A program made the translations under genes and the position numbers. The notes beneath the pieces were generated by a model. It saw only the letters and a program-made list of their open reading frames with translations. It was not told the origin of the DNA and did no database searches. From Capitulum mitella (taxonomy: Eukaryota > Arthropoda > Thecostraca > Pollicipedomorpha > Pollicipedidae), in the NCBI GenBank assembly GCA_030062745.1, contig CP099839.1:25595324-25659323 (forward strand): DNA of 64,000 nt, in the 5' to 3' direction. This document shows positions 15,362 to 63,778 of this stretch, in pieces (the stretch's first letter is position 1; each line of letters starts with the position of its first letter).

Positions 15362-16076
15362 TTAACCCGCCCGACTTGAGGAGGTGGTTGACCGCCCCCT
15401 GAGGTTTTTCCAAAATTGTTAGAGAACGAACGAACGCAGTGCCGCGAAAGTTTGTGCACCTTTAGCTTGATCATTTGTACATCTTTTGTCAAATTTGTGC
15501 CTGATGATCATTTGTACATCTCAGGTGTACAAATCAGGTGCCTGATGTAGGTCAGGTCAAGTGGACCTATGTCCAAAAAGTCTAGCACTCTTTAACTTTT
15601 TCGGAAACATGATGTCGTAATGAAACGTACGGGGATTGGAGATCTTGACAGATGCAACAAACATGCTATCTCAAAATTTTCGGGAACTTTCGGGCCATTG
15701 ACCAAAGGCCAATGACCAAGAAATGTCGTCGTTTCAAGAAATGATTCAAGAAAGAAATGTCATTCAAGAAATGTCGTCGTTTGTTCGGAAATTAGCAGTT
15801 TTTTACAATGTTATGAGTGTGGGGTGATGACGACATCCAGTCGCCGTACGTGGGCAAAATATCAATGACCTGCAACCATTGCTCTGAGGTCAAGTCACGA
15901 ATAACTGTTATGGGCCAAAATTCACCACCGTCAAGATCGGTGAAGAATGACTCAGAGCGGGTAGATAATGGCACAACTGGCTCGCTCAGTCGCGAATCAT
16001 ACCCTACAGCTCGAAAAGTAAAAAAAAACCTGAATATTTTGGAAAAACGGGCTATCGGGAATAAAGCTCCGCCATT
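15362..16076 (+). mobile_element. TTAA family B element, left half (old copy)
   Basis: It begins TTAACCCGCCCGACTTGAG, then GGTGGTTGACCGCCCC (the subterminal hairpin) and GAGGTTTTTCC, as in the full B copies. Colinear similarity to 16513-17744 runs to AATAAAGCTCCGCCATT and then stops abruptly. A local duplication of CAAGAAATGTCGTCG lies at 15718-15778. The missing right half appears to resume at 21791 with the same CGCCATT, so both are probably one element split by an insertion. Confidence 0.65.
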
Positions 16077-16512
16077 ATCACAGTTATCTCCGGGAACATT
16101 GTCTTATTTCTTCGAGTTATTTGGTCCATTCCGACCCCTGATTCCAAAGCTTTTGCCAGAACTGCAAAAGTGAAGACCGAAAAATGCAAAAAATTGAATG
16201 GAAATTGCCCTTTTCAGTCCTTGTAGCGGCGCATGGCTGAAACAGCCTGTGATTGGTTGTGCCGTCACGAAACCCTCAGAGTCGATCCTTCGGACCGGGC
16301 CATGACGTTTAACGCGGTGGGAAAAATCACCCCAGGTTTTTTACTTGCAGTTCCTGAGCCGTTCGAGATAAGGCCGTGAAACTTGGAAGTTGTTCTTAGT
16401 TGTTCTAACACACGTTGGCATAAATGCGCGATTCCTGTGCATCAAGTGGCAGCTCTAGAAGGGGATTCAGAGAATATTGTAAAAATTTAACGTAGTTTCA
16501 TAGCCCGAAAGT

Positions 16513-17744
16513 TTAACCCGTCCCCGACTAAGGGGGGGGGCAGTTGACTGCCCCAATGAGGTTTTTCTCGGATTGCGATAGAACCAACAAACACAGAGTC
16601 ACGAAACTTTGTGTACCTTTTGCTTCATCAATTTTACATCTCGTGTCAAAATTTTGACCTCAGGTCACGTCAGGTGTCTGACCTAGGTCAGGTCAAACAG
16701 ACCTATGTCCAAAAAAATTTAGCGCCCTCTTACTTTTTCGGAAAACAAGATATGTCAATAATACTTTCAGGGATTAGTGATCGCCATAGATGCAACAAAT
16801 CTGCTATCTCAGATTTTTCGGAATTTTTCGGGTCATTGACCTAAGGTCAAGCCCATTTTCAAGACATGTCGTCGTTTTTTCGGAAATTGACGGAATATTA
16901 CGCAACATTTTTAGTGTGGAGTGAAGCAGACATCTAGTTACATCGTCACTGAGCAAAGAATCAATAACTTCCAGCCTTTGACCTGAGGTCAGGTCACGAA
17001 TAACTGTAGTGGGCCAAAATGTACCACCGTCAAAATCGGCGATGAATTACTCAGAATGGGTAGAAAATGGCGGAACTAGCTTGCACAGACGTAAGTAATA
17101 CCAGGAACCTCAAAAAGTTTGAAAACGTAGCATATTTTGGAAATAAACAGGCTCTCGCGAATAAAGCTTCGCCAATTGTGTAGATTGGTAACTAATGAAT
17201 TTTTCCAAAATATAAGCATGGAAACCGATCACAAGAACCACAGAGATACATAATGTTTACATAGATCATCTTTTTTCGCGAAAATAAAGGAACGCTAAAA
17301 TTAGTTCCCGTCAATTTGTTACTGCATACGGCTGCGGCGCACGCCGACAGCTGGCGGGAGAATTGCTGTGTCATTAACTCAACGTTTCGGATATATATTG
17401 AACAAATCTGGAGAAATTAGACGTGTATCGGCATCCGTGGACTTGTACTTGTGCGCTGGTGCCTTAACCTATGCGTTATTAGTTACAGCCCTTGAGATTC
17501 AGGCCATTTCTCGGTCTCAAGCAGTCGGCTATGAGAAAACATATATGGGACGTAAACTGCTTACATATCATCTAAAACTAAAAATGAGACCAGTTGCGAG
17601 CTCTACTCGTCACAAGCTTTCCAACGGTGTGCTTATTTTTATCGTGCGACCAACCGTTCGTGAGTTAGAAGGGGCGGCCAACTGCCCCCCCCCCCCACCC
17701 AGTCGCCCGTCTTCGAAACCGACCGACGGTCGTGCGCGGGTTAA
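16513..17744 (+). mobile_element. TTAA family B element, full copy 1
   Basis: A 1232-bp unit bounded by TTAA on both sides. Left end: TTAACCCGTCCCCGACT, then a G-run and CAGTTGACTGCCCC. Right end: CAACTGCCCCCC, then GACCGACGGTCGTGCGCGGG-TTAA. The TTAACCCG...CGGGTTAA termini are inverted. The body carries everted or direct AGGTCA pairs around 16655-16700, 16840-16860 and 16979-17000. A 145-codon frame (17368-17805) runs past the right end. Comparison with the other copies shows frame-breaking indels, so it is probably not a gene. Confidence 0.8.
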
Positions 17745-17871
17745 GTTAAATATATCAACTACTGGCCAATTTGTCATCTCTTTGGGAAGGCCAATTGCCC
17801 CATAGACCCTCCATTGCCTTAGAACCGATACAAAGCCATCCCCCCACTTAGCTCAGAGCGCAAATGCTATA
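17745..17871. other. Short interval between elements
   Basis: A 127-bp interval separating B copy 1 from the family E left end. It contains TTAAATATATC and a C-run (17840-17845). No gene. Confidence 0.4.
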
Positions 17872-18500
17872 TTAACCCTTGCCAGTCCAAGGGGGAGGGA
17901 GCGCAGCCCCCCGGTTTTTCCAGGACAGGTGCTAAACCGTTTGGCCTAATGGGCTGGCGTTTTGGCTGCCTGAGTTTTAAACCTTTTTCACATGCCCCGA
18001 AAACTCCAAGCTGATGTCATGTCAGGTCACTGAGCTGCGACCTCGTTCTCGAGGGCCTGCAGGTCACCAATATGGAGAATCTGAGCCGTGCCGTCCTAAA
18101 TAATGCTTTCGAGATGGTTTTAGACCTGATTGTTGTTTGCTAGTGGTTTAAGAGGTACCACCCGCCTATAGGGTGACCTTTGCAACCCATTGCAAGACCG
18201 GGATCATCTAAGGCCAAGGTCACGTCGGGTCGTATTCCTTGAAAATTGGTCTTCTACGACTCTCGTTATGTGTTTCGAGGCGTCATACAGTTTTATAGGA
18301 GCAAGGTTTATGTCTGTAGAGGGCACGAGGTCATTAAGGGTCAAGTTCATGTCCGGCCAAGTTCCGGCTTTGTCTCAAGTGATGGAACTTGCTCTTTTAC
18401 CATGCAACGAAACTGCAGTACAGTTTGCAAGGTCGGTTCAAGATCATTAAAGCTCAAGGTCGAGGTAACCTACATGACCTCATGTGACCTTCCCAACCAC
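17872..18500 (+). mobile_element. TTAA-type element, family E (left part)
   Basis: It starts TTAACCCTTGCCAGTCC, then GGGGGAGGG...GCAGCCCCCCGG and GGTTTTTCC, the layout of the B family left end but with different sequence. The body has many half-sites: GGTCACTG near 18025, AAGGTCACG near 18216, AAGGTCGAGG near 18454 and ATGACCTCATGTGACC at 18475-18490. I could not find the matching right TTAA, so the element may be truncated or interrupted and the end given is approximate. Confidence 0.45.
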
Positions 18501-19079
18501 TTGGACACCATTATGGTGTACGTGGACCTTATAAAGCGTTGCCTTGTACTTCCCGAAAGAGCGCCGCAAACAGCGACCGAACTTTGTATCTGTTTGGGGG
18601 GGCCATGCCCCCCATGCTGAGCTGCACCCCCCGTAATTGGCTGGCCCCCTCGCAATGTAGAATTTGACCCCCACTACTCCATCAGTTCGCAATGATAAGA
18701 ACCTAGCATTTTGTAAAAAGAAAAGAAATAGAAAAGAAGTTATATTTTTACGCATCTCCAACATATGAAACGAGAGGTTTGGTGAACTTACTTTTTTCTA
18801 AGAAAGGTTTTTCTATAATTATGGGTGAAATGAAGCACAAATACCGCATTTTAGATAACTGTGGAATTTTGTTTTTAAAATCGCAGTCGGCGTGCCCGCG
18901 AGGATATTTATTACTGCTATTCAGGACCAGGGGCGGGACTTTACATTTCTTTGCAGGGCCTTTACCCCTCCATTGTTGATTCCCCCGTGCTTCCTGCTCG
19001 TAATTACAGTAGAGATAGACAATGATTACAAAAATAATGGTTGTAACAGATAACAGATAAAAGGGTATGGAATACCGTA
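18501..19079. other. Spacer with G/C-run cluster
   Basis: GGGGGGGCCATGCCCCCC at 18595-18612 is a strong hairpin, followed by further C-runs to 18655. It may be the remnant of a MITE or the right end of family E. The downstream sequence is A/T-rich and shows no gene. Confidence 0.4.
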
Positions 19080-19270
19080 TGAAATGCCCTAATGTATATA
19101 TATATATATATATCGTTGGCTTTTTCATGGATAATGAAAAGCAAAAAAAAAACATAAAAATTGACATTGATCAAAGTAACGTTCGCTAAATCCGTTGTGA
19201 AAAACACGTTTGGCGAAGGTATGGTTGTCAGTTCTTCAGCTCGGCCACTCCCCCCCCAGTCATTTAAACA
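19080..19270 (-). mobile_element. 5'-truncated LINE 3' tail, copy 1
   Basis: Read on the minus strand, this matches the 3' tail of the LINE relic at 25505-26340 and the fragment at 52660-52845. It has the sequence CCAAACGTG...ACGGATTTAGCGAAC, then TTGATCAATG, then an A/T-rich tract ending in a (TA)n microsatellite (19091-19113). It has no coding part, as expected for a short 5'-truncated copy. Confidence 0.5.
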
Positions 19271-19977
19271 AAGTTCCACCTCTGCGGGAAAATCACGTAA
19301 AAACTTGATATAACGTCGTCTGACCTAATGTGGCGAGTCAACCGTGCGAGATATCTCAAAATGGCCAAGTAAAAATTGTAGGGAACAGGCAGGGCTGTCT
19401 ACTGTTTTTTTCCTTCTTGCACGGTAGGTGCGGAAACGCATGGGAGACGTCACACAAACCAACTCCCCTGGACTGGCGAAGGAGGCAGAAATGAGAAAGC
19501 TAGCGAGGTTTAAATCGTGACTTAAATGATTAAGCAGCACGATACTCACTTGACATGTGTTGGGCATCTTACCTCAGTGTCCACGCTCTTGCACCGTTTT
19601 GGCTCCCTGTGCAGGAAATACTGACTAAAGAGAGTCCCGCAGTACTTCCTGAGGACCGCAATACCTGCATCATCCCTGCCCAGCGGCACAGCCTGAAGAG
19701 ATAACTTTCACTAAACTATGTATGTTTTCGTCGATAACGGCTTCTACGGCATACGGCTTGAGGTGTATCTTGCTGCGGCGTCATTTTGCACCGCACAATG
19801 ACAATCATACCACTTCTGCTCAGCTCAACATAACGTACTGCATGGTTGCCGTAGGGACTCCCAACAACGCTTGAACGCGTATATGCATATTTTTGCCTCA
19901 ATTAAGCTTTTTTCGTGGCATTTTTCCCACTTCTTTTCACTTGAATTTCCCGTTTCCATATCGTTGATATTTCAAGG
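19271..19977. other. Spacer, no supported gene
   Basis: No gene or repeat recognised. Short minus frames at 19325-19567 and 19716-19901 have no recognisable domains. Confidence 0.4.
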
Positions 19978-20405
19978 CAGGCACGTTACCAGGATATTCG
20001 GGGGGGGGGGTAAATGTCAACCTTTGTTATATGCCACTGGCATATATGAAAATGTATAGGAAAAAGCAACAGTTTTACGTAATTAACCTCATATTTAACG
20101 CACAGGAGAAACAAGCAATGTTTGCTTTTGCAGCATATATATGACCCACTATTCCGTATTCTTGCGAAATAGTTTGATATCTAGTGTAGACCGCTTGGCT
20201 TAGGGATTGTGATGGGGGGGGCATGGCCTACAGTCGCAGCCGGACCCCTTTGGACTCGCATTTTTTTGTGAAAACCATTGCACATTGCCTTCTCGGCAGA
20301 TGGTTTTTGTATGATTTCGATTCACACTGAGCTCCGCTTCCTCCCTTAAGAAAATCCTGGCTGCGCTCCTGCCATGGCTTATGATCTCCCTCGGCTACGT
20401 GCCTG
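19978..20405 (+). mobile_element. hAT-like MITE, family H copy 2 (interrupted)
   Basis: The left end CAGGCACGTTACCAGGATAT and the right end CTCCCTCGGCTACGTGCCTG are inverted repeats. The body matches 60533-60805 (ATGCCACTGGCATA, TTTAACGCACAGGA, GCTTGGCT). A family G MITE interrupts it between 20229 and 20371. Without that insert and one copy of its 8-bp duplication, the element is about 277 bp, close to the uninterrupted copy at 273 bp. Confidence 0.7.
20229..20371 (-). mobile_element. hAT-like MITE, family G copy 2, nested in H
   Basis: About 143 bp, with ends TACAGTCGCAGCC and GGCTGCGCTCCTG. The interior (AAAACCATTGCACATTG, TTTTTGTATGATTTCG) is the reverse complement of the copy at 13293. 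The flanks GCATGGCC and CCATGGCT agree at 6 of 8 positions. Both flanks lie inside family H sequence, so this insertion postdates that element. Confidence 0.7.
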
Positions 20406-21326
20406 TCTAGAAGCGATATATTTTGTGATAATATTTCCATATCTGAATGTCCTAGCGTGATCGCAAACTCGACCCGTTCAACGGAAAGTCATGACATTTA
20501 TGATTTGGTATATTCGTTGATTATGAACAGTTTTCAACATCAACATCAACTCAGCCAGTACCATTATTGGCAACTACCGACAAAGAGTGAGCGTTGTCAA
20601 CATAGTTATGACGGTGGTAGTCATCAAGAGGAGATGAGTGCACCGCCCTGTTTACTTTATAACCAGTATAAACCAGTTAGAATATTTTTGTCTAATGCCA
20701 ATTGTCGATTTGGTTTGGGCTCCTGAGAGAAAAGAAATGTCATGGCTCTGCATAAAACGCTGTTCTTAATGCGCCGGACCGATGTGGTGCATTAAGTGCA
20801 AACATACAGTCAACACAGCTGAAATATCTAGACAGTCAGTCCTGCCATCCCGTCCCCTCTGTAAGCAACGAAGAGGCAACACATTACGGCACACAGAGGT
20901 GTGCCGCCATGACGTCCGGGATGAACGTCATCAGTGTAATGAGTTTCTCAGACATGCAGGAATTCCGATCTAATGAATGGGTGAAAAACCAACACGCAAA
21001 GCGGAAGGCTAAATCGGCTCCTAAGTTGTCTGTAGAGGGGATCGCTTGATTACATGCTTGCCTTGCCGCCCCTTATTTCTGGACTTTGGAAATCTGTCAG
21101 CCAGAACACTGTCATCATCATGGCGTCAACCTTCGGCGAATTTTATGAATGGGCCTTTTTGAACGAATTCATTGTTGACTGAACTTAATGTCTGTAACGT
21201 TGGACTACATTACCGTTGACTTATGGTGTGCACGGCACCATTCATAGTGCTCACCAAAGGCGGAACGCCTTTGAGCAACGAAGACACCATCGCGGAAAAA
21301 CAATTTGGATTGATATGAGCATTAAT
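20406..21326. other. Spacer, no supported gene
   Basis: No recognisable gene or repeat. Frames are under 90 codons. The last 90 bp contain AAAGGCGGAACGCCTTTG (21254-21271), a short perfect hairpin. Confidence 0.4.
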
Positions 21327-21815
21327 TTATTCTGAGAATTTAATCGGAAGCACTGTTTCCCAGTGCTTACCACGTTTTACTATTCGTGCCTGCGTGCCTT
21401 TAGCCAGCCGCGGAGCAAGAGACTGTGGAGAGGAAACGACTGCAGTCCAGATGGGCGCATATGAATTGCCTAAGGTCGCCGTAGTGCACAAAACCGCCGA
21501 AGGCAATGCAACTTCACCGAACAACCGTTGGACTGGGACCTTGTGATCAGTCACAGTGAGAAGACGGCGACAAAATACCGAAACATAAACCAAAACGGCC
21601 GACCGCCAACGAAGCTCGCAGGCTCTTGAGGGTTTTCGTGACGTCGCATAGCCTAGGGCGCGTTTTAAGGCCACTGCACCTTCCGGCGCGAATATCTCGT
21701 GAACTAGACATCGCACAGCAATTTGAATGGTATCTTTGTAGCCAGCGTCTGCAGTTCTAACGAATGAGCATGAATGAGGATTGGTCACTACGCCATTGTG
21801 TAGATTGATAACCAA
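21327..21815 (-). other. 162-codon open frame, product unknown
   Basis: This frame is read on the minus strand and ends ...KFSE. Its upstream end overlaps the old B element, so the first ~8 codons are B sequence and the rest comes from the 5.7-kb inserted segment. No conserved domain or catalytic motif is recognisable. AATAAA overlaps its stop region, and TTAATT follows. The stretch ATATCTCGTGAACTAGACATC (21690-21712) resembles the subterminal ATCTCGAGAACTACACATC of family A. The frame may therefore lie partly in a decayed TTAA element rather than a gene. Confidence 0.15.
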
Positions 21816-21988
21816 TGATTCAAAATTTACGCACTAGAAACCGTCATAGAAACCACTAGAGTCAAGAAGCATCGCTTGGAAAGCATTATATCGAAAAAAT
21901 AAAGAAACTCTAAAATTAGTTCCCGCTAGTTTCATACTGCGTTCAGCAACGGCGCCCGCCATGCCGTGACAAGAAAATCGCCGCGTCT
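21791..21988 (+). mobile_element. TTAA family B old copy, central part
   Basis: It resumes the B-family alignment at CGCCATTGTGTAGATTG. It continues through the ATAAAG...CTAAAATTAGTTCCCG block to the internal TTAA. At that TTAA a younger B element (21989-23210) has inserted. It is more diverged from the full copies than they are from each other. Confidence 0.65.
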
Positions 21989-23210
21989 TTAACCCGTCGC
22001 CGACTGGGGGGGGCAGTTGATTGCCCCCAATAAGGTTTTGCTCGGATTGCGAGAGAACGAACAAACACAGAGTCACCAAACTTTGTGTACCTTTTGCTTC
22101 ATCAATTTTACATCTCGTGTCAAAATTTTGACCTCAGGTCAGGTCCGGTGCCTGACCCAAGTCAGGTCAAACGGATCTATGTCAAAAACGTTTAGCACTC
22201 TGTAACTTTTTCGCAAAACAAAATATCTCAGTAATACTTTCAAAGAATAGTGATCGTGATAGCTGCAATAAATCTGCTTCCTCAGATTTTTTGGGATTTT
22301 CCGGGTCATTGACCTAAGGTCAAACCCATTTTTAAGATATGTGGCCGTTTTTTCGGAAAGTGACGGAATATTTCATAACATTTTTAGTGTGGAGTGAAGC
22401 AGACATCTAGTTACCGTCATTGGGCAAAGTATCAATGACTTCCAGCCATTGACCTGAGGTCAGGTCACGAATAACTGTAGTGAGCCAAACTGTACCACCG
22501 TCAAAATCAGCGATGAATTACTCAGAATGGGTAGAAAATGGCTGAACTAGCTTGCACAGACGTAATTAATACCAGGAACCTCAAAAAGTTTGAAAAAGTA
22601 GCATATTTTGGAAATAAACAGGCTCTCGCGAATAAAGCTCCGCCAACTTTGTAGATTGGTAACTAATGAATTTTTCCAAAATTTAAGCATGAGAAACCAT
22701 CACAGCAACCACAAAGACCAATAAAATTGACATAGATCGTCTTTTTTTGCGAAAATAAAGGAACGCTTAAATTAGATCCCGTCAATTTGGTACCGCATAC
22801 GGCAGCGGCGCAGCCCGACAGCTAGCGAGAGAATTGTCGTGTCTTTAACTCCACGTTTCGGCGCAGATATTGAACAAATCTGGGAAATTAGACGTGTATC
22901 GGCATCCGCGGACCTTTACTTGTGCGCTGGTGCCTTTACCTATGCGTTATTAATCACAGCCCTTGAGATTCAGGCCATTTCTCAGTCTCATGCAGTCGGC
23001 CATGAGAAAACATATATAAGGCGTAAATTGGCTTACATATTATCTAAAACTAAAAATGAGACCAGTTTCGAGCTCCACTCGTCACAAGCTTTCCAACAGT
23101 ATACTTATTTTTACCGTGTGACCAACCGTTCGTGAGTTAGAGGGAGGCAGCCAACTGCCCTCCCCCAGTTGCCGATGTTCGAAACGGACCGACGGTCGTG
23201 CGCGGGTTAA
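21989..23210 (+). mobile_element. TTAA family B element, full copy 2 (nested)
   Basis: A 1222-bp unit. Left end: TTAACCCGTCGCCGACT, then a G-run and CAGTTGATTGCCCCC. Right end: GACCGACGGTCGTGCGCGGG-TTAA. It sits exactly in the internal TTAA of an older B copy: the sequence GCGTCT-TTAA before it and TTAA-GTCAACGTTT after it join to match the uninterrupted GTCTTTAACTCAACG of the other copies. This shows directly that the family integrates at TTAA and duplicates it. Confidence 0.85.
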
Positions 23211-23759
23211 GTCAACGTTTCCGCGTGTTTATTAAACGAATCAGAGAAATTACACGTACGTCGACATCTGCGGACTTTTAACTTTTCGTTGGTGCCTTTA
23301 CCTAGAATTTATTAATCATAATTCTTGAGATCTAGGCCGTTTCTCGGTTTCATGTAGTCGGCTATGAGAAGACATACACGGGGTGTAAATGGGTTACATG
23401 CATGGGTGGAGCCACGAACCGGAAATTGGGGATAAACAGTCTAGCCGAAAATCTCATTTCCCAACGAAACATGGCGAAAAACGCCCATTTTCCGTCCAAA
23501 TCCGAGGGGAGACAACGCCCATTTTGCCAAAATTGTAGGAGACATGTCCCCCAGTCATCCCCCTGGTTACGCCCATGCTTTCATATTTCCCACAACTAAA
23601 AATGAGGCGAGTTTCGAGCTCTACTTGTTACGAGCTTTCTAACGGTATGTTTATTTGTATTGTGCGACCAATCGTTCATGAGTCAGAGGGGGGCGGCGAT
23701 CAACTGCTCCCCCACAGTCGGGCGTGTATAGCGCTGACTGTCAGTGAGACTTGGGTTAA
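23211..23759 (+). mobile_element. TTAA family B old copy, right part
   Basis: It continues from the internal TTAA (GTCAACGTTTCCGCGTG) to a right end at 23756-23759 (TTGGGTTAA). The terminal G/C hairpin (GGGGGGCGGCGATCAACTG, C-run) is retained. A 177-bp MITE interrupts it at 23401-23577. The frame present in younger copies has stops here. Confidence 0.7.
23401..23577 (+). mobile_element. hAT-like MITE inside old family B copy
   Basis: A 177-bp insert. Its ends CATGGGTGGAGCCACG and CCTGGTTACGCCCATG are imperfect inverted repeats of the CAGGGGCGTAGCC type. The flanks GTTACATG and CTTTCATA both resemble the uninterrupted GCTTACATATT of other B copies, which fits a decayed 8-bp duplication. The interior has an imperfect internal repeat (AAACGCCCATTTTCCG and CAACGCCCATTTTGCC). 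Confidence 0.65.
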
Positions 23760-25699: not shown

Positions 25700-26340
25700 G
25701 ATGCCTGCTGATGGCATTTACACAAAACGACATCTCTGCCTAGTCGGATGTGGTGTTGGAGGGCTGTATTTCAGTCGTTCACTGGCAATTTCATGTCGAA
25801 GCGAGTGCTGCAATGTAATGCTTGTTTTGCAGTGTTCCGTTCGCTCGTTCCCTTTGATGTCTGCGTGTCCCGGCATTCGAAGGGATGAAATGTTGTTTGC
25901 GTCACGGGACATGTGCCGCTGTACGTGATCTGTGATGTAGCGTGATGGGTCGACCGTGATGCAATACTGATTTCGAGTCGGAGCAGACAACCACGATAAT
26001 CCTGTGTCTGGTTGATAGCCATGGGTAGACCTGATAGACCAAGGGCTATCAGGATGACCATAGCTTCCGCTGTGAAAATGGATGTTTTGCCTGGGCGATG
26101 TGAGTCCAAATCCGACTTTGCAGTCGATTTTGGACCCGTCCGTGCACATGGAAGGTTTGTGGTTGATAACTGTGGCGCGCTCGCTGAACCTGGCGTGGAT
26201 TTCTGTTTGCGCTATGTCTGCCTTACGTTCTGTGAGTAGGTATTCAACGGTGGACGGTGTGTGTATTCAGAATGGCTCGAAGGGCGATCTGGGTGCCGTA
26301 TGGTGCAACATACTGAAGGCCTGCTAGAGCCGTGCATTCT
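25700..26340 (-). pseudogene. Non-LTR retrotransposon relic: RT thumb and RNase H
   Basis: A decayed polyprotein 3' end read on the minus strand across at least three frames. From 26330 down: an RT C-terminal (thumb-like) APYGT segment, then YLLTERKADIAQTEIHARF, then TDGSK (the first RNase H aspartate motif). Next come VGFGLTS, TAEAMVILIAL (the glutamate helix), GCLLRLEISIASRSTHHATS, and MPGHADIKGNERTE, the usual (W)xPGHxxIxGNExA box of LINE RNase H. Frameshifts separate these blocks and TAG/TGA codons occur, so it is dead. Domain order and motifs fit RNase H-bearing LINE clades (I, R1 or LOA type). I cannot choose between them. The upstream start at ~26345 abuts repeat K, which suggests 5' truncation. 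Confidence 0.75.
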
Positions 26341-26344
26341 CCAG

Positions 26345-29649: not shown

Positions 29650-30867
29650 TTAACCCTATTCCCGGAGGGCTAGACGGTATGGTCGATTCCCGGCAGGGGG
29701 GTCGGTTCGGCCACCCCCCTGAGATCTCGAGAACTACACATCCGATTTCATCGCAACAAACGGAAATCGATTTGCCATGACGTAAACTACACTTAAATAA
29801 AGAGAAATTTCCAAAATTTTGAAAGGTGTAGATACGGGGGGGGGGGCAAAAATGTCAAAATCAGGGATATTTTTAGACTTCTTATAACTCCGTTGTTTAT
29901 GGACCGATTTCGATGAAACTGGCATGAACCGAGAGATGATGGATAGGACTTTTACCATTGGTACACATATCTCAAATTTTGAGAAAATTCATGGGCGTTC
30001 ACAGGGTTTCAGAAATAGGAGGACTAGTTTTCCAACAACTGAATGAACAAAGAAGGCAAAAACACTTTTTTGGCTTCTGCTAGTCATGCTATGCTAAAGA
30101 AGTACAAATCGCATTACAGCGTTTGTATAATGTTAGCATAGGCGGTGCCAGGGACATGAAAAAGGGGGAACTGTCATGGTCACACGTTCTTCAGATCAAC
30201 TTGTGACCTTTGACCTTAAATGACCTCCAGTGACCTTGGAGTCACTTGGAATGATCTCGTGTGCATTGAATGCTATCTGTAAACGTTTTAATCATTTGAA
30301 TTCACTCTATTTCAAAAATTTCATTTTATGGCTATTGCGATATAGGGTACGCGCACTGACATTTTATGTCATAGCTCCGTGACCCGACCTGGTATCAAGC
30401 TGACACTTGATACACAAGTAGAGGGCATCTTTCTACACCTTATATATTCAGGGTTTGGCATTTGGAAAAAAACAGCACCGAAATTATTGCAATAAAACCA
30501 AACTTTAACTTTTGATCTTGACCTGACCTTGTAAAGTGATCTCTGATAAACAAAATTATATCTGCACATTGTTCAACTATTTAGCTATACATCCATATAA
30601 AGTTTTAAGTCCTATCATAAAAACGCTGTTTTTGGAAGACATTTTCCTTTTTCCCTCAACATGGCCAAAAATGGCCTGAGGTGCCTCCCAAAAACGTTGC
30701 CTGACTTCTCCCCTGAGGAAAACAGAATTTTGAAATTTTGTCACGGCACGTAAAAAGAATAGCTAGGAAACGTCACGAAGTTTCGTGAAGCTGCGTCAAA
30801 AAGCCTGGAATTGGCAAGCAAAAAACCCGAGGGGGCGAATTCAGCCCCCTGTCTGGAATAGGGTTAA
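29650..30867 (+). mobile_element. TTAA family A element, full copy 1
   Basis: A 1218-bp unit with TTAA at both edges. Left: TTAACCCTATTCCCGGAGGG. Right: TCTGGAATAGGGTTAA, giving inverted TTAACCCTATTCC termini. A G-run/C-run hairpin lies inside each end: GGGGGGTCGG...CCACCCCCC at 29694-29717, and GGGGGCGAATTCAGCCCCC at 30832-30850. GAGATCTCGAGAACTACAC follows the left hairpin. The body contains TGACCTTTGACCTTAAATG (30205-30223), TGACCTCCAGTGACCTTGG (30222-30240), and TTGACCTGACCTTG (30518-30531). A 10-G run occurs at 29837-29847. No open frame of size is present. Confidence 0.85.
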
Positions 30868-33013: not shown

Positions 33014-34325
33014 TTAACCCGCGCAGTGGAAAGGGATTTCGCGCTATCGCGCACTAGAAGGGGGGGGGGGCACAAAAGTGCCCCCTCTGATCTCGGAGAC
33101 GGAAAGAGCTAGAGACATGAAATGTGGACACGGCGGGGCCATAACGGTTTACGCTGTGTGCAATTTTTATGACCCTGTGTCAATACAGTCAAGGTCAAAT
33201 GGGATTGAAAAGGTCAGCTTTGGACATTTTCTCTTCCCGTACAGGTTATTCCGTACAACTTTTTGGACGAAACGGGAAAAGGGTGTTGGTTTGCGCGTTA
33301 AAACGTGGAATACGACAACTGCCATTCATTTGACGTTTTGTCTGATTTTGGGCCGAAGTCATGTCACGTCAATGACCAATGACGTCATCTTTTGCAGATC
33401 AGATTTCGAGTAACACGGGATAGCTTGAGCCTAAATGAGAGCGCTACACGCATCTTTTGGCATATTTTCAATGAAGGTACCCATTATCGGCACATTTGAT
33501 CACTTCCAACGTTTATATTGATGTATGTATGTATATGTATACATGCATACACATGTGAGTATCATTGTGCGAAACGTGCTTTTGGTAGGGTCTTTGAATG
33601 CATATTTCATGCCGATCGACATATTGCAAACCAAATCTAGACCAGGTCACAAAATAGATGCCCTTGACCTTCGATGACCTTGACCGGCACTGACCATTGT
33701 ATATATAAGCGTATCCATGGGCACACACGTGTTTTTATTAGCGTCTCTGAATGCATATTTCATACAAATCGACATGTCGCAAAACAAATCTGGACCAGGT
33801 CACAAGATATTTGACCTTGGCCTTCGATGACCTTGACTTCCACTGATCCTAGTATATGTAAGCGAGTCAGTGTGCGCACACGTATTTTTCATTACGGTCT
33901 CTGAATGCATGTTTCATACAAACCTCCAAGTTGCAAAGCAAATCAGGATCAGGTGACAAGCTGTTTGACCTTGACCTTTGGTGACCTTGACCCTTATTGC
34001 CCCTGGCTTTGGTTTTGGTGCATCCATCATTTATGCCCCAATGACGTCGCCTAATAGTGTTCAAACGGTAATCTTAGGTAGAACGCTAGTCCTTCCGCAA
34101 TGTTCCCATTTGTCAGCGCCAACCGTGATTTTCGTTGTTTGCTTGACTTCAGATGCTTGAAACTTTGAAAACTTCCGGTTGATTTTCGATTTTTCTGCGT
34201 CAGTCGACGTGCTGTTCAATTGACATAAATGTTACAAGGTAGCAGCAACCAGCTCCGATCCGTTCTCGAGATTAAGAAAACAGGTGGGGGGCACAAAAAG
34301 ACCTCCCTTCAAATTCGCGTGTTAA
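33014..34325 (+). mobile_element. TTAA-type ~1.3-kb element, family D
   Basis: Left: TTAACCCGCGCAGTGG. Right: AATTCGCGTGTTAA, so the ends read TTAACMCGCG inward on both sides. The hairpin AGGGG...GGGCACAAAAGTGCCCCC (33060-33086) lies inside the left end. GGTGGGGGGCACAAAAAGACC followed by TCCC lies inside the right end. TCTCGAGATT near the right end mirrors the CTCGAGAAC of family A. The body holds three ~155-bp tandem units. No protein is encoded. Confidence 0.75.
33555..34010. repeat. ~155-bp tandem units inside family D
   Basis: Three consecutive units, each with ACACGTG/ACGTATTTTT-like DNA, then a (T)CTCTGAATGCATRTTTCAT phrase, CAAATC, GGACCAGGTCACAA, and TTGACCTT-GATGACCTTGAC, ending before a TATATRTAAGCG phrase. 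GAATGCATATTTCAT recurs at ~33596 and ~33751, and GAATGCATGTTTCAT at ~33904. Confidence 0.75.
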
Positions 34326-37259: not shown

Positions 37260-37357
37260 CATCTATATTTATATATGTATATATATAATGAAGATGGTAA
37301 TGAAACTAAAATATTCGGAAAGACAAAAGCAGTATTCGACGTTTCGGCTTCATTAGG

Positions 37358-38045: not shown

Positions 38046-38114
38046 CTCAGGACAGTCTTGTTTTACCACAGATCGTGTCTGAGGTATTTCGGGACGCTGC
38101 TATCGAATTAGAAC

Positions 38115-38590
38115 AGCTGAAACTTAATACACGAGTAGAGGGAACCCTTCTACATCACATATATTCTGGGTTTGAAATTTAAAAAATAGCGCCGAAATTG
38201 TTACTATAAAACCAAATTTTGACTTTTGACCTTGACCTGACCTTGTAAATCGACCTCAGATGAACAAAACTGTATTTGCACCTTGCCAAACTATTTAGCT
38301 ATACATCCACATAAAGTTTTAAGTTCAATCTTAAAAACCCTATTTTTGGCAGTCATTTCCCTTTTACCCTTAACAGGGCCAAAATTGGCCTGAGGCGCCT
38401 CCCAAAAACGTCGTCTGGCTCCGCCCCTGTGCAAAATAGAATCTCGAAATTTTGTCACAGCACGTAGAAAAAATAGCTAGGAAAAATGATTAAGTTTCGT
38501 GAAGCTGCGTTAAAAACCCTAGAATTGGCAAGCAAACAACCCGAGGGGGGAGGGGGTGATTCAGCTCCCCCCTGCGGGGAATAGGGTTAA
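38115..38590 (+). mobile_element. TTAA family A, 3' fragment
   Basis: It matches the right 480 bp or so of the full A elements. The match runs from CTGAAACTTRATACACRAGTAG and TGACCTTGACCTGACCTTG to the terminal hairpin (AGGGGG...GATTCAGCTCCCCCC) and GGGGAATAGGGTTAA. The left part is absent, and the sequence before ~38115 does not align with family A. It lies between the arms of the palindrome. Confidence 0.75.
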
Positions 38591-42921: not shown

Positions 42922-44151
42922 TTAACCCGTCCCCGACTGGGGGGGGCAGTTGACTGCCCCCCCTGAGGTTTTTCTGGGATTGCGAGAGAACGAACTAACA
43001 CGGAGTCACAAACCTTTGTGTACCTTTTGCTCCATCAATTTTACGTCTCGTGTCAAAATTTTGACCTCAGGTCAGGTCAGGTGCCTGACCTACAGCAGGT
43101 CAAACAGACCTAAGTCCAAAAAAGTTTAGCACCCTCTAACTTTTTCGCAAAACAAGATATCTCAATAATACTTTCAGGGATAAGTGATCGTGATACATGC
43201 AACAACTCTGCTATCTCGGATTTTTCGGAATTTTCCGGGTCATTGACCTAAGGTCAAGCCCATTTTTAAGACATATCGCCGTTTTTTTTCTGAAATTGAC
43301 GGAATATTTCATCACATTTTTAGTGTGGAGTGAAGCAGACATCTAGTTACCGTCATTGGGCAAAGTATCAGTGACTTCCAGCCATTGACCTGAGGTCAGG
43401 TCACGAATAACTGAAGTGGGTCAAAATGTACCACCGTCAAAATCGACGATGAATTACTCAGAATGGGTAGAAAATGGCACAACTAGCTAGCACAGACGTA
43501 GGTAATACCAGGAACCTCAAAAAGTTTGAAAAAGTAGCATATTTTGGAAATAAACAGGCTCTCGCGAATAAAGCTCCGCCAACTTTGTAGATTGGCAACT
43601 AATCAATTTTTCCAACATTTAAGCATGAGAAACGATCACAAGAACCACAAAGGTCAATAAAATTGACATAGATTGTCTTTTTTCGCGAAAATAAAGGAGC
43701 GCTAAAATTAGTTCCCGTCAATTTGGTACCGCATACGGCAGCGGCGCACAGTGACGCCTGACGGGAGAATTACGGTGTCTTTAACTCAACGTTTCGGCGT
43801 ATATATTGAACAAATCTGGGGAAATTAGACGTGTATCGGCATCCGCGGACATTTACTTGTGCGCTGGTGCCTTTACCTATGCGTTATTAGTTACAGCCCT
43901 TGAGATTCAGGCCATTTCTCGGTCTCATGCAGTCGGCTATGAGAAAACATATATAGGGCGTAAATTGGCTTACATATTATCTAAAACTAAAAATGAGACC
44001 AGTTTCGAGCTCTACTCGTGACGGGCTTTCCAACGGTATGCTTATTTTTATCGTGCGACTAACCGTTCGTGAGTTAGAGGGGGGGCAGTCAACTGCCCCC
44101 CCCCCCCAGTCGCCAGTGTTCGGGACGGACCGACGGTCGTGCGCGGGTTAA
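42922..44151 (+). mobile_element. TTAA family B element, full copy 3
   Basis: The best reference copy, 1230 bp. Left: TTAACCCGTCCCCGACT, then a G-run with CAGTTGACTG and a C-run. Right: the same hairpin (G-run CAGTCAACTG C-run, 44079-44107), then GACCGACGGTCGTGCGCGGG-TTAA. Hexamer clusters are TGACCTCAGGTCAGGTCAGG (43061-43080), TGACCTAAGGTCAAG (43245-43259) and TGACCTGAGGTCAGGTCACG (43387-43406). A 71-codon frame (43806-44021) is shared with other copies but is not maintained across indels. Confidence 0.85.
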
Positions 44152-49907: not shown

Positions 49908-50447
49908 CTACTCACACTGGTGGGGGAGGGGGTATACTTTGTCCCCTATACTTCCTGGTACATCCGATCGATTCCAGCGACGTTTTTAAGAGGAGGTCGT
50001 TGGCCTAATTTCTGATGCGTAACTGTCAGAAAATGGATGGCTAGATCAAGTTTGTCGAGAACAAACAAAGTCAGACATTGAATAACTAGCACTCCCTTAT
50101 TTCTCCAGATTTATCAAGTTGATGGCAACCGAATTTTGTAGAACCGTGGTCCGTATTATGAACTTACATACCACAGGGCCATGTTCACCTATGCCAGGTT
50201 AATTGAGGTCAGTCTAGGTCGATATCTGAAAATGATGGATTCCGTCAAAATGGAGCATAGTAGTCTGGAGCGTTGTTAAAACGTAGGATACCCTTGTGTA
50301 CCTATGAGCAAAGTGACGTACTTAAGTCATTTGAGGTCATCCGGGGTCAACAGGAGTCAACAAAATGCATCCTTGCAATATTTAATTGAGATTATTCGGG
50401 CGATTTCGAGAAGAAGAAAGAATGTTACGTCTTCACTGACCTTGCAT

Positions 50448-50665
50448 CGGGGGGGGGGGGGGGTAGCCAAGGGAGGCTAGGGGGCCATGATCTCTCTTAG
50501 GGCTGAAACTTGAAGTTTTCATACTCACCAGAATGAAAATAAATGTGGATTTCGGGAGCTCGAAAGCTCCAAAATAATGCGGCCCAAATGCGAGGAATGT
50601 TCAGTTTCTAGGGAGGCTTGGTTTGTCCTGGCCTAATCATTGGCGAAATCTCGGCTGCACTCATG
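50448..50665. mobile_element. hAT-like MITE inside family C copy
   Basis: A 218-bp insert with a perfect 8-bp target duplication, CCTTGCAT (50440-50447 and 50666-50673). It starts with a 14-G tract, then TAGCCAAGGGAGG, and ends TCTCGGCTGCACTCATG, a worn version of the CTTGGCTGCGCCCCTG end. Related to families G and H by its ends only. Confidence 0.8.
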
Positions 50666-50864
50666 CCTTGCATGCCATCAGTTAACATGACCAAGCTTTC
50701 AGGTGCCTGCATTCACCATGCAGCCAAATTATCCCAAAATTCCCACATGATCCCTTTATAATATGCTGCGTTTTGAATACCTGACCTCAGTTCGGGTCTA
50801 TTGACCTGACCTAGGTCACTTGCTCCGGAGTAGGTACATTTGTAAGATACAGCCTTACAGTATT

Positions 50865-51115
50865 GGTCGCGCGGCCACTCGGGCCGCGCCCCATAGTTGG
50901 ATGGGCGACCCATAGGGGCGCTCGTGCGCCGCGTGTCACTGTCGTTATTTCGTTTGTCCGCCCAGCCCCCGGAGAGCCCTGGTGCGGGGCCGACGGTAGT
51001 GTGTAAACGGAGTCAGAGCGTGGTGCGCGGTCCCGTCCGACCGGGAATACAAAAATTCGTTGTGTTGCTGAGTGTGTTACGCCCGGTACGCGGACTGCCG
51101 AGTGGAGGAGATAAG
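50865..51115. other. GC-rich insert in family C copy
   Basis: About 250 bp that interrupt the C-family alignment between ATGATTGTG and TCTTACAAATGTACC (minus strand). It is GC-rich, with CGCGCGGCC, GGGCCGCGCCCC and GTGCGCGGTCCCGTCCG. No terminal repeats or coding motif could be identified, so its origin is unknown. Confidence 0.45.
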
Positions 51116-51575
51116 GGATGACGCTACACAATCATCTTGCAGACTTCCGAAAAGCCACGTTAAAATGAGATGAATAATCTGCGGGAAAAATACAGATTGC
51201 TTTATATTTGCCATTTGACTTTGGTTGACCTTAACTGACCTGACCCAGCTACCTGAGCCTTCCGAATGTAAATGAATCAGATAAACCAAATGAACGCAAT
51301 GTGAAGCTGCTGGCCTCTTATTCCATACGCAACATAGTTGCTGTCCCTCGGTCCGCCATGCGCGCGGCCGCCCGCCGCCGACGCTGGATCGACCGGGCGA
51401 CTGGCGTCTCGACTTCACCAAGCTGTAGAGAAGGAAATCACCGCTCGATTTTCAAATTTCAACAGAGAAAAGATGCACAAAAAGTTAAGGGCTGCAGAGT
51501 TGTTATTACGAAGCTCATGCGCAAAACAAAACACGAGGGGTGCGCAGTTTTCGCCCCCATCAATACTCGCGTTAA

Positions 51576-54994: not shown

Positions 54995-57900
54995 CCCCCA
55001 GAACAGTGTGTGACCCCCAAAGTAATATCTGCACTCTTTCGTAACATAAAAGAGCTAATAGATGTACAAAGATTGCAGGCATACATGGATATGTAGGCGA
55101 ATATCTACGACTTCATTAAAAAATACACCACAAGAATTCAGCCATAGGTAGAAGTGACGGGGAGCTGAGCCCCTTACGGTCTGATTCTTTAGCAAACAAA
55201 ATCCGGCTTTCTGGAGTCCGTAAATGAAGTGGACGAAATCAGGGGAGTCTGCGACTTTGAGGGTAAGGGCTGGCCGGGCCCCTTCCATACAAAAATACCC
55301 TCCATACAAAAATCCTAACATTTGAATGCACCTACAAAAAATTTTGATAAATGTCACCCCGTTTGATAGATAACAACACCAGGGTTCTTCTTACAAACAT
55401 TGGTTGTAACTGGTTATATTTATTAGGTAAATAAAACATGCATTCGAGTCAACCAGCATTTGGGAGTCAATTTAGGAAATCAGCTGCCAAAAACTATCGA
55501 AAACATTCGATTCTGATTCCTGGCCCAAAAAGCGACTATGGTTCTCATTCTGAACCATAGTTGTGAAACAGGGAATCGATTCTAATCCATATTTACGAAA
55601 AAAAAATCGGAGAACGCAAATCATTTCTTGTTCAATTTTGAATTGCTTACAGGTTCGGTCACAACAACTATTTTGAGCTCGTTTTAGACTCTATTTGTCT
55701 ACAAAAGAACGCGGGTGGGAAGGTAACAAAAATTAGCCCGTGTGGAGCTCCTGGATACGCCGTAGATTTATGCTGTAACGTACACCACTATGTTTGCGAT
55801 AATGTCAGACGCTCAGACGTCAGACGTCAGGCGTATACAGCCACCAAGCTCAGTTCATATCCAGATGTCCAGCTTAATCTCTCTGGTTTATTTCATGATT
55901 CAGTGACAAATTTAGGTATAAAAAGATGAAACGCTGGTGTGCCTCAAGTCAGGACATGATCCTGCGTCAGGTCAGGTCACATGGTCGATCTTATATAACA
56001 TTCTATTATCTATGGTTGTGTAACCTAAGGAGTTTCAGTCCAAAGGTACTCATTGACTTTTTGTTTCTTTTGTTATTGGTCCTGGACAAATTACGAAATA
56101 AAGCAAAGGAAACGGCAGAATGCTAGGTGCGGTCACAAGATTAGGTCAGGCCACGATGGGTTATTGGCGTTCTAGTCTGTCGGCATTTAAAAAAAATGTT
56201 CGGAGAAATCATTTCTTCCGTTTTGGAAGCATGTATAGACAACAAACTTGCCAGCTACGTTCAGAAACCTCGCAAATAAAGCGGAATGAAAAGTGAAATA
56301 TCGGGTCACCTAATGCAATATGTGATGAAATGCATGTCATAAATTATATGTCACCGTAATGTATATTCTTTTGGTTTCCCATTGGAATGCTCAGAACTAT
56401 TCTCGGTTCATTAGGGGCGGACCTAGAGCTCTTCTCCGAAATTCCCATTTTTGCATATATAAGACATTTGCACATATAAGCCAAAGAGCTGCGTTATTTT
56501 TAAACATTTTCCGAAACTTCTGAATACTGTGGAGCGGACTGACTGCGAACTTTCCAGTGGTAAAAGTTTCATTTGTCTCCAACATTTCTTTCGCGAGAGA
56601 GAGGGGGGCGTAAAAACGCACCCCCGGTTCCGACCACCCCTGTCAGGGTGCTGGATGGGCCAGGATTAAATATCTATTCCAGACTTACGAGTCCCACTTC
56701 CGTTCCCCCTGACAGCCTTCCACTGACAAAACTCGATCCAAAGCTGACCAGTGAACATGCTAAAAGAACTGTTTTTTATGGTACCTGGCGTCGCCATTAA
56801 CACGCGTTTATTACTTTAACTTCGCAGATTTGTTTCTGTTTCCCCTATACACATGGGTTAACGATCAACGATCGGATCGGGAAAGCTGAATCGAATCCCA
56901 AGAATTCGTTTCAGCTATTTCGCAAGCAAATCAAATGGTTTATTCCCGAAATATTCGGGAAGGGGTGGGGCGGGCTGCAAATATGCGAGATTTAGCGCGA
57001 TACCAGCGACACTTAGCTCTAATATCGAGGTGCCGGAATGGGTTGAAATTGAGACGACTTCTTCACGTCGTTACCACGTACAGGTACTTCACAGAGTCAT
57101 TCATCGCCAGTGCGCACACTCAGCCATGTTATACAATGCAGAACCGTCGTTTTCGTTCGAGACGTTTCGAAAACTTTGGAGGTTTGGGAAGCTTAATGGC
57201 AAATCAGAATTGCTTGAAAGCCCTATTTTATTCAGGTAAACTCAGTTAAAAGTCTGCATACTTCCATCTTACTTAACTCCGAGAAGTATACATCTCTGGG
57301 CATCGCTTTATGCGTACGTTGTCTTTGAGCTATTCCTTTGACGTTAGTCGGCTCCCACAATGCTACAAACCCTTTCGTAACGAGTTCAGAATTAATTGTG
57401 CATTGCCTTATGGTATTTGAGAAAAAGAATTGGGAAAACCTGCATTAATTGGGCGAAGCGTCACGAGGTTAGGTATGCCAATTTAGGAAAGGCACCGTCT
57501 TGCTGTTAAGTGAGAAGGACCTTGCTGACAAAACTTCATGCCGGTGCTGTCTAGTGGCCAGCCCACCCCCTTGATTGCAGCGCCCTGGCATAGCGATACC
57601 ACAACCCATGCAAATGCGTCGATCACTGTTGTCTCTTGAGCTGGAGCTACGCCGTTCTAGATACTGCACAATTTGCACCAGCGCGCACCAGGCCAGCCCA
57701 ATCCCGGATCGAACACCTGCCCCATCTCGTGCGTCTGTTCCCCTCATACCAGCCAACAAGGGGTTACCCGCAGTCTACCTCCTTAGCCCACCATAGACTT
57801 GCTGCGGTCACCTTCCCAGCTCAAGATCGTACGGTCGATAGTCAAGAGGTAATTCATGATGTTGTCTTTAGGTCGAGTGGTTGACCAGTCAGACTGCACG

Positions 57901-60805: not shown

Positions 60806-62581
60806 GAAACATTTGTTTAGCAATGATGAGAAATATGGGCAACGTTCATGGAAACGTCTACCCTAGATCTTCTTCGACTTTCTGGTCAGTCCGTTATATG
60901 TTGATTGGAAGTCGAGAAAGTTTCAGTTTACCAGAAAACCAGCCAGATGCTTTCGCCAACCGAATTCTGGTATGGTCGATCCCCGAGGACATTGCTGTGA
61001 TGGTCTGTGGACACGAGTGATAGGGCCACAGTTAATGGTGTCACGTTATTCTGCGTCGCCAGATAAATGCCTTCACGAAGTGGGCCCACGCGGCAAAACG
61101 TCGTCATTCTCGACAGGAAAGCTAAAAGGCATCAGGTGAACCAGATTGGAGGAATTTTCATCGATGCGTCTGCCCTCTTATGATCGTTGCGCCCCGTCCT
61201 GCATCTCTGCTCATCCCGTTTTTCCGGTCACGGATAACATGCCGCTCAGCCATATCTGACACCACGACCCGCTGCTTTGTGGAGATTTATTGCTTGCTTG
61301 ACACCCTCCGGCGGCTGACCGTTAAGTCAGATCGGACGAGTGAATCTTCCAAGCGAACAGTTTTGTCGACCGGTCCTCTCTGCGGCGGCGACCTGCAAGG
61401 GTGCGTGTCGATCCAGGCCTTAGAGGTCTCCGCACCACTCCGATAAAGAGCGCAACTTGCACTGACTAACGAATTAATAGCCTCGAATAACAAAATCGCG
61501 CGGTATCAAACTGTTCCGCGACGGGCACACGACACCAGCGTCAAAACGCACGTCAAAACCGCTCGGCCGAGTCAGCTGGTCCTTCTCTCAGCGCGATGCT
61601 TGGCGACGCTCCACGCGGAAACAAATCCGACCTCAGTCACTGGTCAGCCGCCACCGTTTCTGCCTGTCTCACGTCCAGTCCCGGTCACGAGCAGCCTCTT
61701 GGCTTCTGTTTCCCGGACTGTGGAACCGTTAACACGGATAAATAACGGTCCATGCCGCTGCACGTCGTTCGGACCCATTCGATGTTTTTATGCATTCGTT
61801 CAACGGTCACGTTGCTAACGGTGGCTCTGGGGACTGCGACGTGATCAGGGCTTCAATCGGAATTCCGTCTAAATTTTGAGGTTGCGAAGAACGTTCGCAT
61901 CAGACCAGGCGAGTTTTGATTATTTCAAAGTTAGCTGAACAAAGGATTTTACGGGAAGTCTCTGTCGACTCCTCATATAGCTTTTTCATTTTTGAACTCA
62001 CGCAGTAAAGAACTCGACCCTGTCTTATATACATGGCGTCCATCACCAGTGATGACGTTGAATCGGGCATCAATTTCGGCTCAGTGCTGCAGCTTTTAGT
62101 GCCCGCTCCCCGTCAAGATTCGTATCCATGACGATTTTATCGACCAGCAGGCTTTGTTTTGTCAGTTTCCATGTCAGCAAAGCCAGCACGGAACTTCTGA
62201 ACGGCAACATAACTACGTGGACCATAAACTGGTCAACGACCTCGAGGTCTGACTGGTGTGGGATACGAACCATTCATTCGCTGCTTTGCAGTCTCTAGCC
62301 GCTAACCATGCATCGCAATTGCTTGGATGCAGTGGCTTGGTTCTGTTACCTTTCCTCGCTGCAGAGCATGCTGTCCTTTCCTTAAACAAGATGACTTTTT
62401 TGGACATGGTCTCATGCATCTCGGACGTCTACCGCTCGAGTGGCAGGTCTCGCAAGGACTTAATCCCCCCATATTACATGCTAGGGAACCGCCATGGTCT
62501 ATCTTCAATACGTGTTTTGAACTAAGATAGCCAACCTGTAGATCCCGACGCTGGAAATGTATTTCCAACATATGCTACTTC
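60806..62581. other. Spacer, no supported gene
   Basis: GC-moderate, with many short overlapping frames on both strands between 61180 and 62570 (for example minus 62302-62571 and 62213-62419). No domain recognised. Confidence 0.4.
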
Positions 62582-63778
62582 TTAACCCTATTCCCGGAGG
62601 GCTACACGGTATTTCCGATTTCCGGCAGGGGAAGGGGGGCCGATTGGGCCTCCCTGGGATCTCGAGAACTACACATCCAATTTCGTCGCAACAAACGGCA
62701 ATCGATTTGCCATGACGTAAACTACACTTAAAAAATAGCTTTTCAAATGAAAGGGGTTGATACAGGGGAAAAAATGTCAAATGGGGGTACTTTTGGACGT
62801 CTTTTAACTCCGTTGTTTATGGACCGATTTTAATGAAATTGGCATGGATCCAGAGACTATGGATGGGACTTTTACCAGTTGTACAAACATTTGAAATCTT
62901 GAAAAAAATAATAGGCGTTCACAAGGTTTCAAAAATAGGAGGGCTAGTTTTTTCAAAAACTGCATGAACAAAAAAAGGTAAAACACTTTTTGGCTTCTGT
63001 TGGTCATGTTATGCTGAAGGAGTACAAATCATATTACAGTGTTTGCATGTTGTTGGCATAGGCGATGCCAGGGACATGAAAAAGGGGGAACTGTCATGGA
63101 TACGTGCTCTTCAGATCAACTTGTGATCTTTGGCCTTAAATGACCTTGGGGTCACTTGGAATGATCTCGTGTACATTTAGTATTATCTGTAAACGTTTTC
63201 AATCATTTGAATTCACTCTGTTTCGAAAATTCCATGTTACGGCTATTGTGATACAGGGTACGGACACTGACATTTTATGTCATAGCTCCATGAGCCGACC
63301 TGATATCGAGCTGAAACTTGATACACAAGTAGAGGGTACCATTCTACGTCATATTCCGGAATGGCATTTCAAAAATAGCACCGAAATTATAACTATAAAA
63401 CCAGATTTTGACTTTTGACCTTGACTTGACCTTGCAAAGTTACCTCAGACAAAGAAAATCATATTTGCACGTTGCCCAGCTATTTAGCTATACATCCATA
63501 GAAGGTTTTAAGTCCTGTCTTAAAACACTATTTTTGGCAGTCGTTTTACCTTTACCCTCAACATGGCCAAAAATGGTCTGAGGTGCCTCCCAAAAAGGTT
63601 GCCTGGCTCCCCCCCTGAGCAACAAGAATTTCGAAATATTGCCACAGTACGTAGAAGGAATAGTGACTAGGAAAAGTGACCAAGTTTCGTGAAGCTGTGT
63701 CAAAAATCCTGAAATTGGCAAGCAAAAAAAAACCGGGGGGGGGGGCGAATTCAGCCTCCCCTTCGGGAATAGGGTTAA
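62582..63778 (+). mobile_element. TTAA family A element, full copy 2
   Basis: A 1197-bp unit. Left: TTAACCCTATTCCCGGAGGG. Right: CTTCGGGAATAGGGTTAA. The left G/C hairpin is altered (GGGGAAGGGGGGCCGATTGG, then GCCTCCC) but GATCTCGAGAACTACACATC is intact. The right hairpin has a 12-G tract, then CGAATTCAGCCTCCCC. The body is colinear with 29650-30867, with point differences and small indels. TGACCTTGACTTGACCTTG is at 63416-63434. Confidence 0.85.

Follow-up and report, generated by a model that had tools for sequence, protein, structure and literature searches.

What are the units of about 1.2 kb, bounded by TTAA, that recur in a 64,000-nt stretch of contig CP099839.1 of Capitulum mitella (hereafter the window), and what moves them? 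An earlier note, made from the letters alone, had described five families, A to E, with different sequences and one shared architecture, and had read them as non-autonomous piggyBac-like lineages. We located the units by self-BLAST and reading of the sequence (Table 1) and followed them through the genome (477,042,490 bp in 16 contigs). Very likely, families A, B and D are non-autonomous transposons of the piggyBac superfamily that are moved by a transposase acting in trans, and the same probably holds for C and E. The class had thus been named earlier; what is new, and supported by the data below, is that the same unequal palindrome distances occur in families of different sequence, so that the geometry of the ends makes the assignment a mechanistic one.

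All six complete units in the window (A2, A3, A4, B1, B2 and D) have TTAA at both edges. The three complete A units are 89-90.5% alike and the two B units 82%, and the window self-BLAST found no cross-family similarity between the bodies of A, B and D. The longest ATG-to-stop frame within the eight window pieces examined encodes 98 aa. The TTAA edges, the lack of an open reading frame and the unit length of 1.2-1.3 kb that had been proposed hold for A, B and D (1197-1312 bp in the window); C and the E candidate show one end only. Family C is recognizable by its 5' end, and its 3' end was not found in the window. For E, which had been described with no separate coordinates, the candidate is a single end on the minus strand, 65% alike over 402 columns to an end that lies close to a decayed copy of piggyBac on contig C7 (L088; L-numbers denote loci fetched from the genome). 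Further D copies are present in L048 and L060.

Genome-wide, A and B are large families. With A4 as the query there were 5,547 first-look candidates; 40 of them were scored, and the 30 with the best scores were fetched. Each of these 30 copies is TTAA-bounded, their flanks differ, and they measure 1,223-1,233 bp. The exact 22-nt 3' terminus of A occurs 2,656 times (1,346 + 1,310), against 0 + 0 for the reversed control. The B query gave 10,321 first-look candidates, of which 40 were scored; ends were read in 10 copies, 8 of which have TTAACCC and GGGTTAA at the two edges, the other 2 being altered at one edge. The genome-wide copies that the earlier note had called for thus place the edges of both families at TTAA, and the CCC-type termini it described were recovered as well. 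Inside the TTAA, the 5'-CC(C/T) termini looked for in piggyBac elements are present in A (CCCG), in B (CCCT) and at the long end of D (CCCG in the window copy, TCCG in L048), the exception being the short end of D, which reads CACG. Family A also has the lack of coding capacity, the uniform length and the high copy number of miniature inverted-repeat transposable elements (MITEs) and other non-autonomous elements. The exact A termini had no matches in a viral contig collection, and the exact B termini none in a genome contig collection.

In order to find empty sites, the two flanking sequences were joined for each of 36 elements, namely 30 A loci plus six window units, and the joins were searched for uninterrupted matches outside the element's own locus. 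Five of the 36 joins were spanned, and three show a clean single TTAA: L002, which lies within an A copy (TTAA in 36/36 spanning matches), window A3, within A5 (38/38), and L008, within a B copy (4/7). The check for empty TTAA sites that had been suggested therefore yields three clear cases, consistent with a TTAA target that is duplicated on insertion, as in piggyBac. Junction matches for L004 and L013 fell on their own loci only and were not counted. Nesting involves the coding elements of the genome as well: one internal TTAA of A has received A elements (window A3 and L002) as well as a coding piggyBac element (L033), and further coding copies sit inside B (L039, L053) and D (L048).

The geometry of the ends was examined by measuring palindrome centres from the inner edge of the TTAA, the mechanical score taking the top palindrome in the first 75 bp. 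A and B carry a palindrome made of a G-run and a C-run close to each of their ends, and D has one at its long end. In all 30 fetched A copies the centre lies at 25-28 bp at one end, the short end, and at 53-58 bp at the other, the long end; the long-end palindromes of A2 and A3 in the window are decayed and are not top-scoring mechanically. In B, long-end centres lie at 51.5-55 bp and short-end centres at 24.5-27.5 bp in seven of eight copies and at 30.5 bp in the eighth, while the three D long ends have theirs at 53, 53 and 58 bp. Read by eye, the imperfect hairpin of the D short end is centred at about 25 bp, that of C at about 27 and that of E at about 52. The same two distances, about 25-28 bp at short ends and 52-58 bp at long ends, recur in families of differing sequence, and unequal ends of the piggyBac type with a subterminal palindrome are present in 30/30 A copies, in 8/8 B copies and in D at the long end. 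The proposal of a hairpin near each end is thereby borne out for A, B and the D long end, and is weaker elsewhere, the D short end being imperfect and C and E readable by eye only. Folded as DNA and compared with shuffles, the two A4 ends gave z-scores of -2.8 and -1.9, the D long end -2.8 and E -2.1.

The palindrome cores differ between families (CAGTTGACTG, CGGAATCCG, GCACAAAAGTGC, GCGTTTTTACGC), and the G/C arms recur. Alignment of the ends brought out two more common features: GTTTT follows within about 10 bases inside the hairpin in 7/7 aligned short ends (A, A1, B, C, two D and an end F of L094), and CTC stands shortly inside it in 7/7 aligned long ends (A, B, three D, E and an end G of L088). 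These motifs, noticed after alignment and without a formal test, agree with the view of several sequence families on one end plan, and the likeness would favour either common descent or a common reader of the ends. End F of L094 (C1:7020061) is a further TTAACCC end, with GGTTTTTC inside, close to a PB-II copy (see below), and is partly similar to A bodies (70% over 160 columns). At L087 (C7:22537139) an end near a decayed coding piggyBac copy carries a GTGGTACC..GGTACCAC palindrome centred 24 bp from the TTAA, which repeats the geometry of the short ends around a different core; a long end to match it was not found.

Strict patterns for the two kinds of end were then counted over the genome. 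The short-end pattern occurs 4,783 times on the forward strand, against 6 for its reversed-pattern control, and the long-end pattern 5,374 times, against 3; twice the forward figure would put the number of strict long ends at about ten thousand (counts from the reverse-strand scan repeat rows and were unused). Pairing was examined on contig C1 up to about 3.58 Mb, a sample of 47 distinct long and 54 distinct short ends, with families labelled by eye, that leaves out 13 long ends listed beyond that point. For 30 of the 47 long ends, a short end of the same family lies inward at a distance of 1,192-1,305 bp, facing it. Within 1.4 kb there were no mixed-family pairs, and neither long/long nor short/short pairs were found; the outward-facing control gave one. 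Seventeen long ends have no partner in the list, as would be expected wherever the other end departs from the strict pattern; the D short end, with its CACG, cannot match it.

The piggyBac element of Trichoplusia ni (IFP2) has 5'-CCC termini, as have A and B, and the letters of its repeats are unrelated to the G-run/C-run palindromes found here. The likeness goes further. The minimal ends of IFP2, LE35 and RE63, each carry a 19-bp palindromic repeat that is bound by C-terminal domains of the transposase, with contacts of the cysteine-rich domain centred near bp 25 of the left end, and in cells the native transposase requires both kinds of end together, the hyperactive version being less strict (PMC7351741); the palindromic repeats are placed 3 and 31 nt inward of the terminal repeats (PMC12324416). 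IFP2 thus shares with our families the TTAA target, a palindromic repeat at about 25 and 54 bp from the tips and one end of each kind, and differs in that the bodies of A, B and D are non-coding and have no transposase linked to their ends. Each of our units carries a short end, with the palindrome centred about 25 bp in, and a long end, where the centre lies about 54 bp in. By analogy with IFP2, the palindrome would serve as the binding place for a dimer of the C-terminal cysteine-rich domain, and the unequal spacing would be needed for assembly of the synaptic complex. A transposase, probably of piggyBac type and supplied in trans, would excise A, B and D elements at TTAA and insert them at new TTAA sites.

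A search of the genome with the PF13843 profile gave 118 matches, some loci giving two, and 36 loci were inspected for ends (30 cut out, five further flanked copies and one more). By DNA similarity the 30 cut-out loci form two groups of 15. PB-I elements are about 2.9 kb long, with CCCATTAACGCCCAG ends and an intact 588-aa frame whose alignment to the piggyBat transposase keeps the three aspartates that are catalytic in piggyBac transposases; PB-II elements are about 2.7 kb long and end in CCCTTTAGTGCCCA and CCCATTAGTGCCCAT. Of the 30 loci, 27 show one or more termini of PB-I or PB-II, and L035, L049 and L056 show none. Two of the five further copies have PB-III ends (TTAACCCGTTTTAG), one has a PB-IV end, whose palindrome is centred at 24, and in two no end of their own is seen; the sixth locus is a PB-II copy. 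A and B termini near some transposase loci belong to separate A or B copies. The autonomous element with the same termini that the earlier note expected did not turn up at these loci, where the coding families have other termini. PB-I and PB-II, which carry a DDE_Tnp_1_7 transposase, resemble our families in their TTAACCC termini and TTAA insertion, and differ from them in their terminal sequence, in having no G/C hairpins and in containing few AGGTCA. The cognate transposase may be encoded among the uninspected matches, it may have died out, or it may come from an element whose ends differ and still act in trans.

Two candidates for a coding A element were set aside. At L049 (contig C2, with L081 and L082; C2:27086600-27096700) a 593-aa frame without stops, grouped with PB-I by DNA and sharing 50% protein identity with it, has a G+C-rich upstream region and, at a distance of about 2.6 kb, a 290-bp 3' fragment of A; no second A end and no terminal repeats of its own were found in the 10.1 kb read, and L049 may be a domesticated transposase gene. 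An A copy on C13, about 220 bp from a decayed transposase frame, has an ordinary A body and another A copy adjoining or inside it, and is not a coding A element.

Several observations weigh against the piggyBac assignment. A lenient palindrome test is passed by 22 of 476 ordinary TTAA ends in the window, and therefore single ends prove little, and it is repetition across copies and families that carries weight. A blind scan of the window for hairpins at TTAA gave 10 matches, with 5-12 in displaced controls; the hairpins of C, E and the D short end are not the top palindrome by the mechanical score; and those of B1 fold at best slightly better than shuffled sequence (z 0.0 and -1.2). Among the spanned flank joins, the comparators of L023 (in an A copy) have TCAA in 37 of 39 cases and TTAA in one, and L015 is spanned by a single rough match with no clean TTAA. 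To these must be added that none of the coding elements at the 36 loci inspected of the 118 matches was seen to have ends of the A, B or D type as its own, that PB-I and PB-II, the best-sampled coding families, are without the hairpins, and that the right end of piggyBat has no palindrome matching those on its left end (PMC11707139), so that this geometry supports membership of the superfamily and does not define it. Could the hairpins, then, be incidental low complexity or fragile sites, and the units ordinary repeats with TTAA edges by chance? The blind scan and the folding of B1 would suit such a view, as would the variation in G-run length between copies. It is nevertheless barely credible, given that 30/30 A copies are TTAA-bounded and that the exact A terminus is absent from the reversed control; the pairing of long with short ends speaks against incidental hairpins, and the empty sites with one TTAA already contradict chance edges.

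Two other readings concern the transposase. The units could be non-autonomous members of a different superfamily, either Kolobok or Sola3 (the latter likewise a TTAA superfamily), with piggyBac-like ends by chance, and the missing owner of A, B and D ends at the inspected loci fits this. Kolobok likewise makes TTAA duplications, and its termini are 5'-RR..YY-3' (PMC9587614), whereas A and B start with 5'-CC at either end, as does the window copy of D at its long end. The combination of TTAA duplication with 5'-RR..YY-3' termini is thus not what we find, and Kolobok is unsupported because A and B begin 5'-CC and not 5'-RR; since the unequal palindrome spacing of A, B and the D long end also matches piggyBac, we regard an origin in another superfamily as very unlikely. 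Alternatively, the resident PB-I or PB-II might move A, B and D despite their different ends. PB-I has its intact frame and inserts at TTAA, even at the internal TTAA of an A copy (L033) that A elements have also hit, but PB-I and PB-II termini share little beyond CCC with A and have no hairpins, and their involvement seems rather improbable. Mobilization of A, B and D by a piggyBac-superfamily transposase in trans is the reading we prefer.

Two other groups of non-coding TTAA elements offer parallels. The coral CMITEs are likewise non-coding, with TTAA duplication, CCC-type terminal inverted repeats (TIRs) and several families per genome that differ in their TIRs, and one of these families is related to a piggyBac-like element; they differ in being about 100 bp long, against 1.2-1.3 kb here, and in their conserved 75-base core, and no subterminal hairpins are noted in the available part of their description (PMC2872659). 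The mPok MITEs of Daphnia Pokey resemble our units in being large (about 750 bp), in lying at TTAA and in inserting into the flanking TTAA of another copy; their ends match the resident autonomous Pokey (PMC3849761), and no such match was found for A, B or D.

The bodies share one further property. Counted on both strands with overlaps included, AGGTCA occurs 56 times in eight window pieces (6.5/kb) vs 83 times outside them (1.5/kb), and a mononucleotide shuffle of the window contains about 30 in all (about 0.47/kb); D has 11, B1 5 and B2 3. The AGGTCA-rich bodies reported from the letters are thereby confirmed. In the 30 fetched A copies it is the commonest body hexamer, with 9-11 per copy and 7.9/kb vs 1.6/kb in flanks and 0.47/kb in shuffles, although these copies are near-identical, so that the richness is one family's property counted 30 times. 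Coding copies lie near or below background (0.28/kb in five PB-I, 0.67/kb in five PB-II). The enrichment in A bodies is an unexplained body motif; AGGTCA is a nuclear-receptor half-site. A literature search of partial coverage found no paper on AGGTCA-rich piggyBac MITEs.

Table 1. Units, fragments and end palindromes located in the window (palindrome centres in bp from the TTAA).
Feature	Position	Strand	Description	Basis
A1	15362..16074	+	5' half of old A copy	69.5% to A2 over 729 alignment columns
A1 short end			imperfect palindrome, centre 24	
A2	16513..17744	+	complete A unit, TTAA to TTAA, 1232 bp	self-BLAST and ends
C	17872..17914	+	TTAACCC short-type end with G-run/C-run hairpin	sequence, alignment to other short ends
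A5 left piece	21788..21988	+	3' part of old A copy, split by A3	
A3	21989..23210	+	complete A unit, 1222 bp, nested at TTAA within A5	self-BLAST
A5 right piece	23207..23759	+	ends in GGGTTAA, starts at TTAA common to A3	
B1	29650..30867	+	complete B unit, 1218 bp, long end left	self-BLAST and ends
D	33014..34325	+	complete D unit, 1312 bp, long end left	
B3	38115..38590	+	3' fragment of B, ends in GGGTTAA	self-BLAST
A4	42922..44151	+	complete A unit, 1230 bp, used as genome query	self-BLAST and ends
A4 short-end palindrome	42940..42963	+	centre 26	
A4 long-end palindrome	44079..44102	-	core as in A4 short end, centre 57	
E candidate	56266..56669	-	long-type end, TTAA 56666-56669, hairpin centre about 52	
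B2	62582..63778	+	complete B unit, 1197 bp	self-BLAST and ends

Several of these features have surroundings of their own. A1 (5' half) and A5 (3' half) break at the same consensus position within about 8 bp; the breakpoints lie 5.7 kb apart, with the 7-bp CGCCATT at both. They may equally be two halves of a single old A copy into which something inserted later, or the two extremities of a longer element. A single long coding A element with these two ends is unsupported, because a six-frame Pfam search of 17745-21787 (stops as X; 16075-16512 lies outside the search) gave no transposase match, nor any match to E 1 except one at 0.26. D contains a tandem array at 33574-33992 (153-bp unit, 2.7 copies) with AGGTCA/TGACCT-like motifs. 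A4 is flanked by inverted repeat arms (71%) at 42112-42472 and 44150-44521, the right arm starting at the right edge of A4. The B 3' fragment begins 6 bp within the inner edge of the left arm of a large foldback repeat (37337-40215; arms 37456-38109 and 39532-40172, 76% alike, AT-rich repeats outside). Another dispersed repeat family, at 6427-7108, 11408-12268 and 50043-51461 (65-75% alike by self-BLAST), has AGGTCA visible and no TTAA ends that we noticed. A 182-aa open frame on the minus strand (25718-26266) has the letters PGHADIKGNE, which are reminiscent of the RNase H domain of non-LTR retrotransposons. The window contains no Rfam match at gathering threshold and no tRNA.

The need for one left end (LE) and one right end (RE) was shown with constructs in cells (PMC7351741); here thousands of natural elements, in families of different sequence, are available, and 30/30 paired units in the sampled stretch carry exactly one end of each kind. 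Taken together, the families supply a natural set of differing palindromes, all placed at the same two distances, which would be useful for learning what the C-terminal domain reads. A further idea, which we put forward as unlikely though conceivable, is that all these families may stem from a single radiation of large piggyBac elements that were left without their transposase, in which the core was repeatedly replaced, the arms, distances and inner motifs were kept and the bodies retained their AGGTCA arrays, and that the elements may recruit a nuclear receptor of the host, either to open chromatin or to time transposition. If so, thousands of insertions would have scattered nuclear-receptor sites over the genome of this barnacle.

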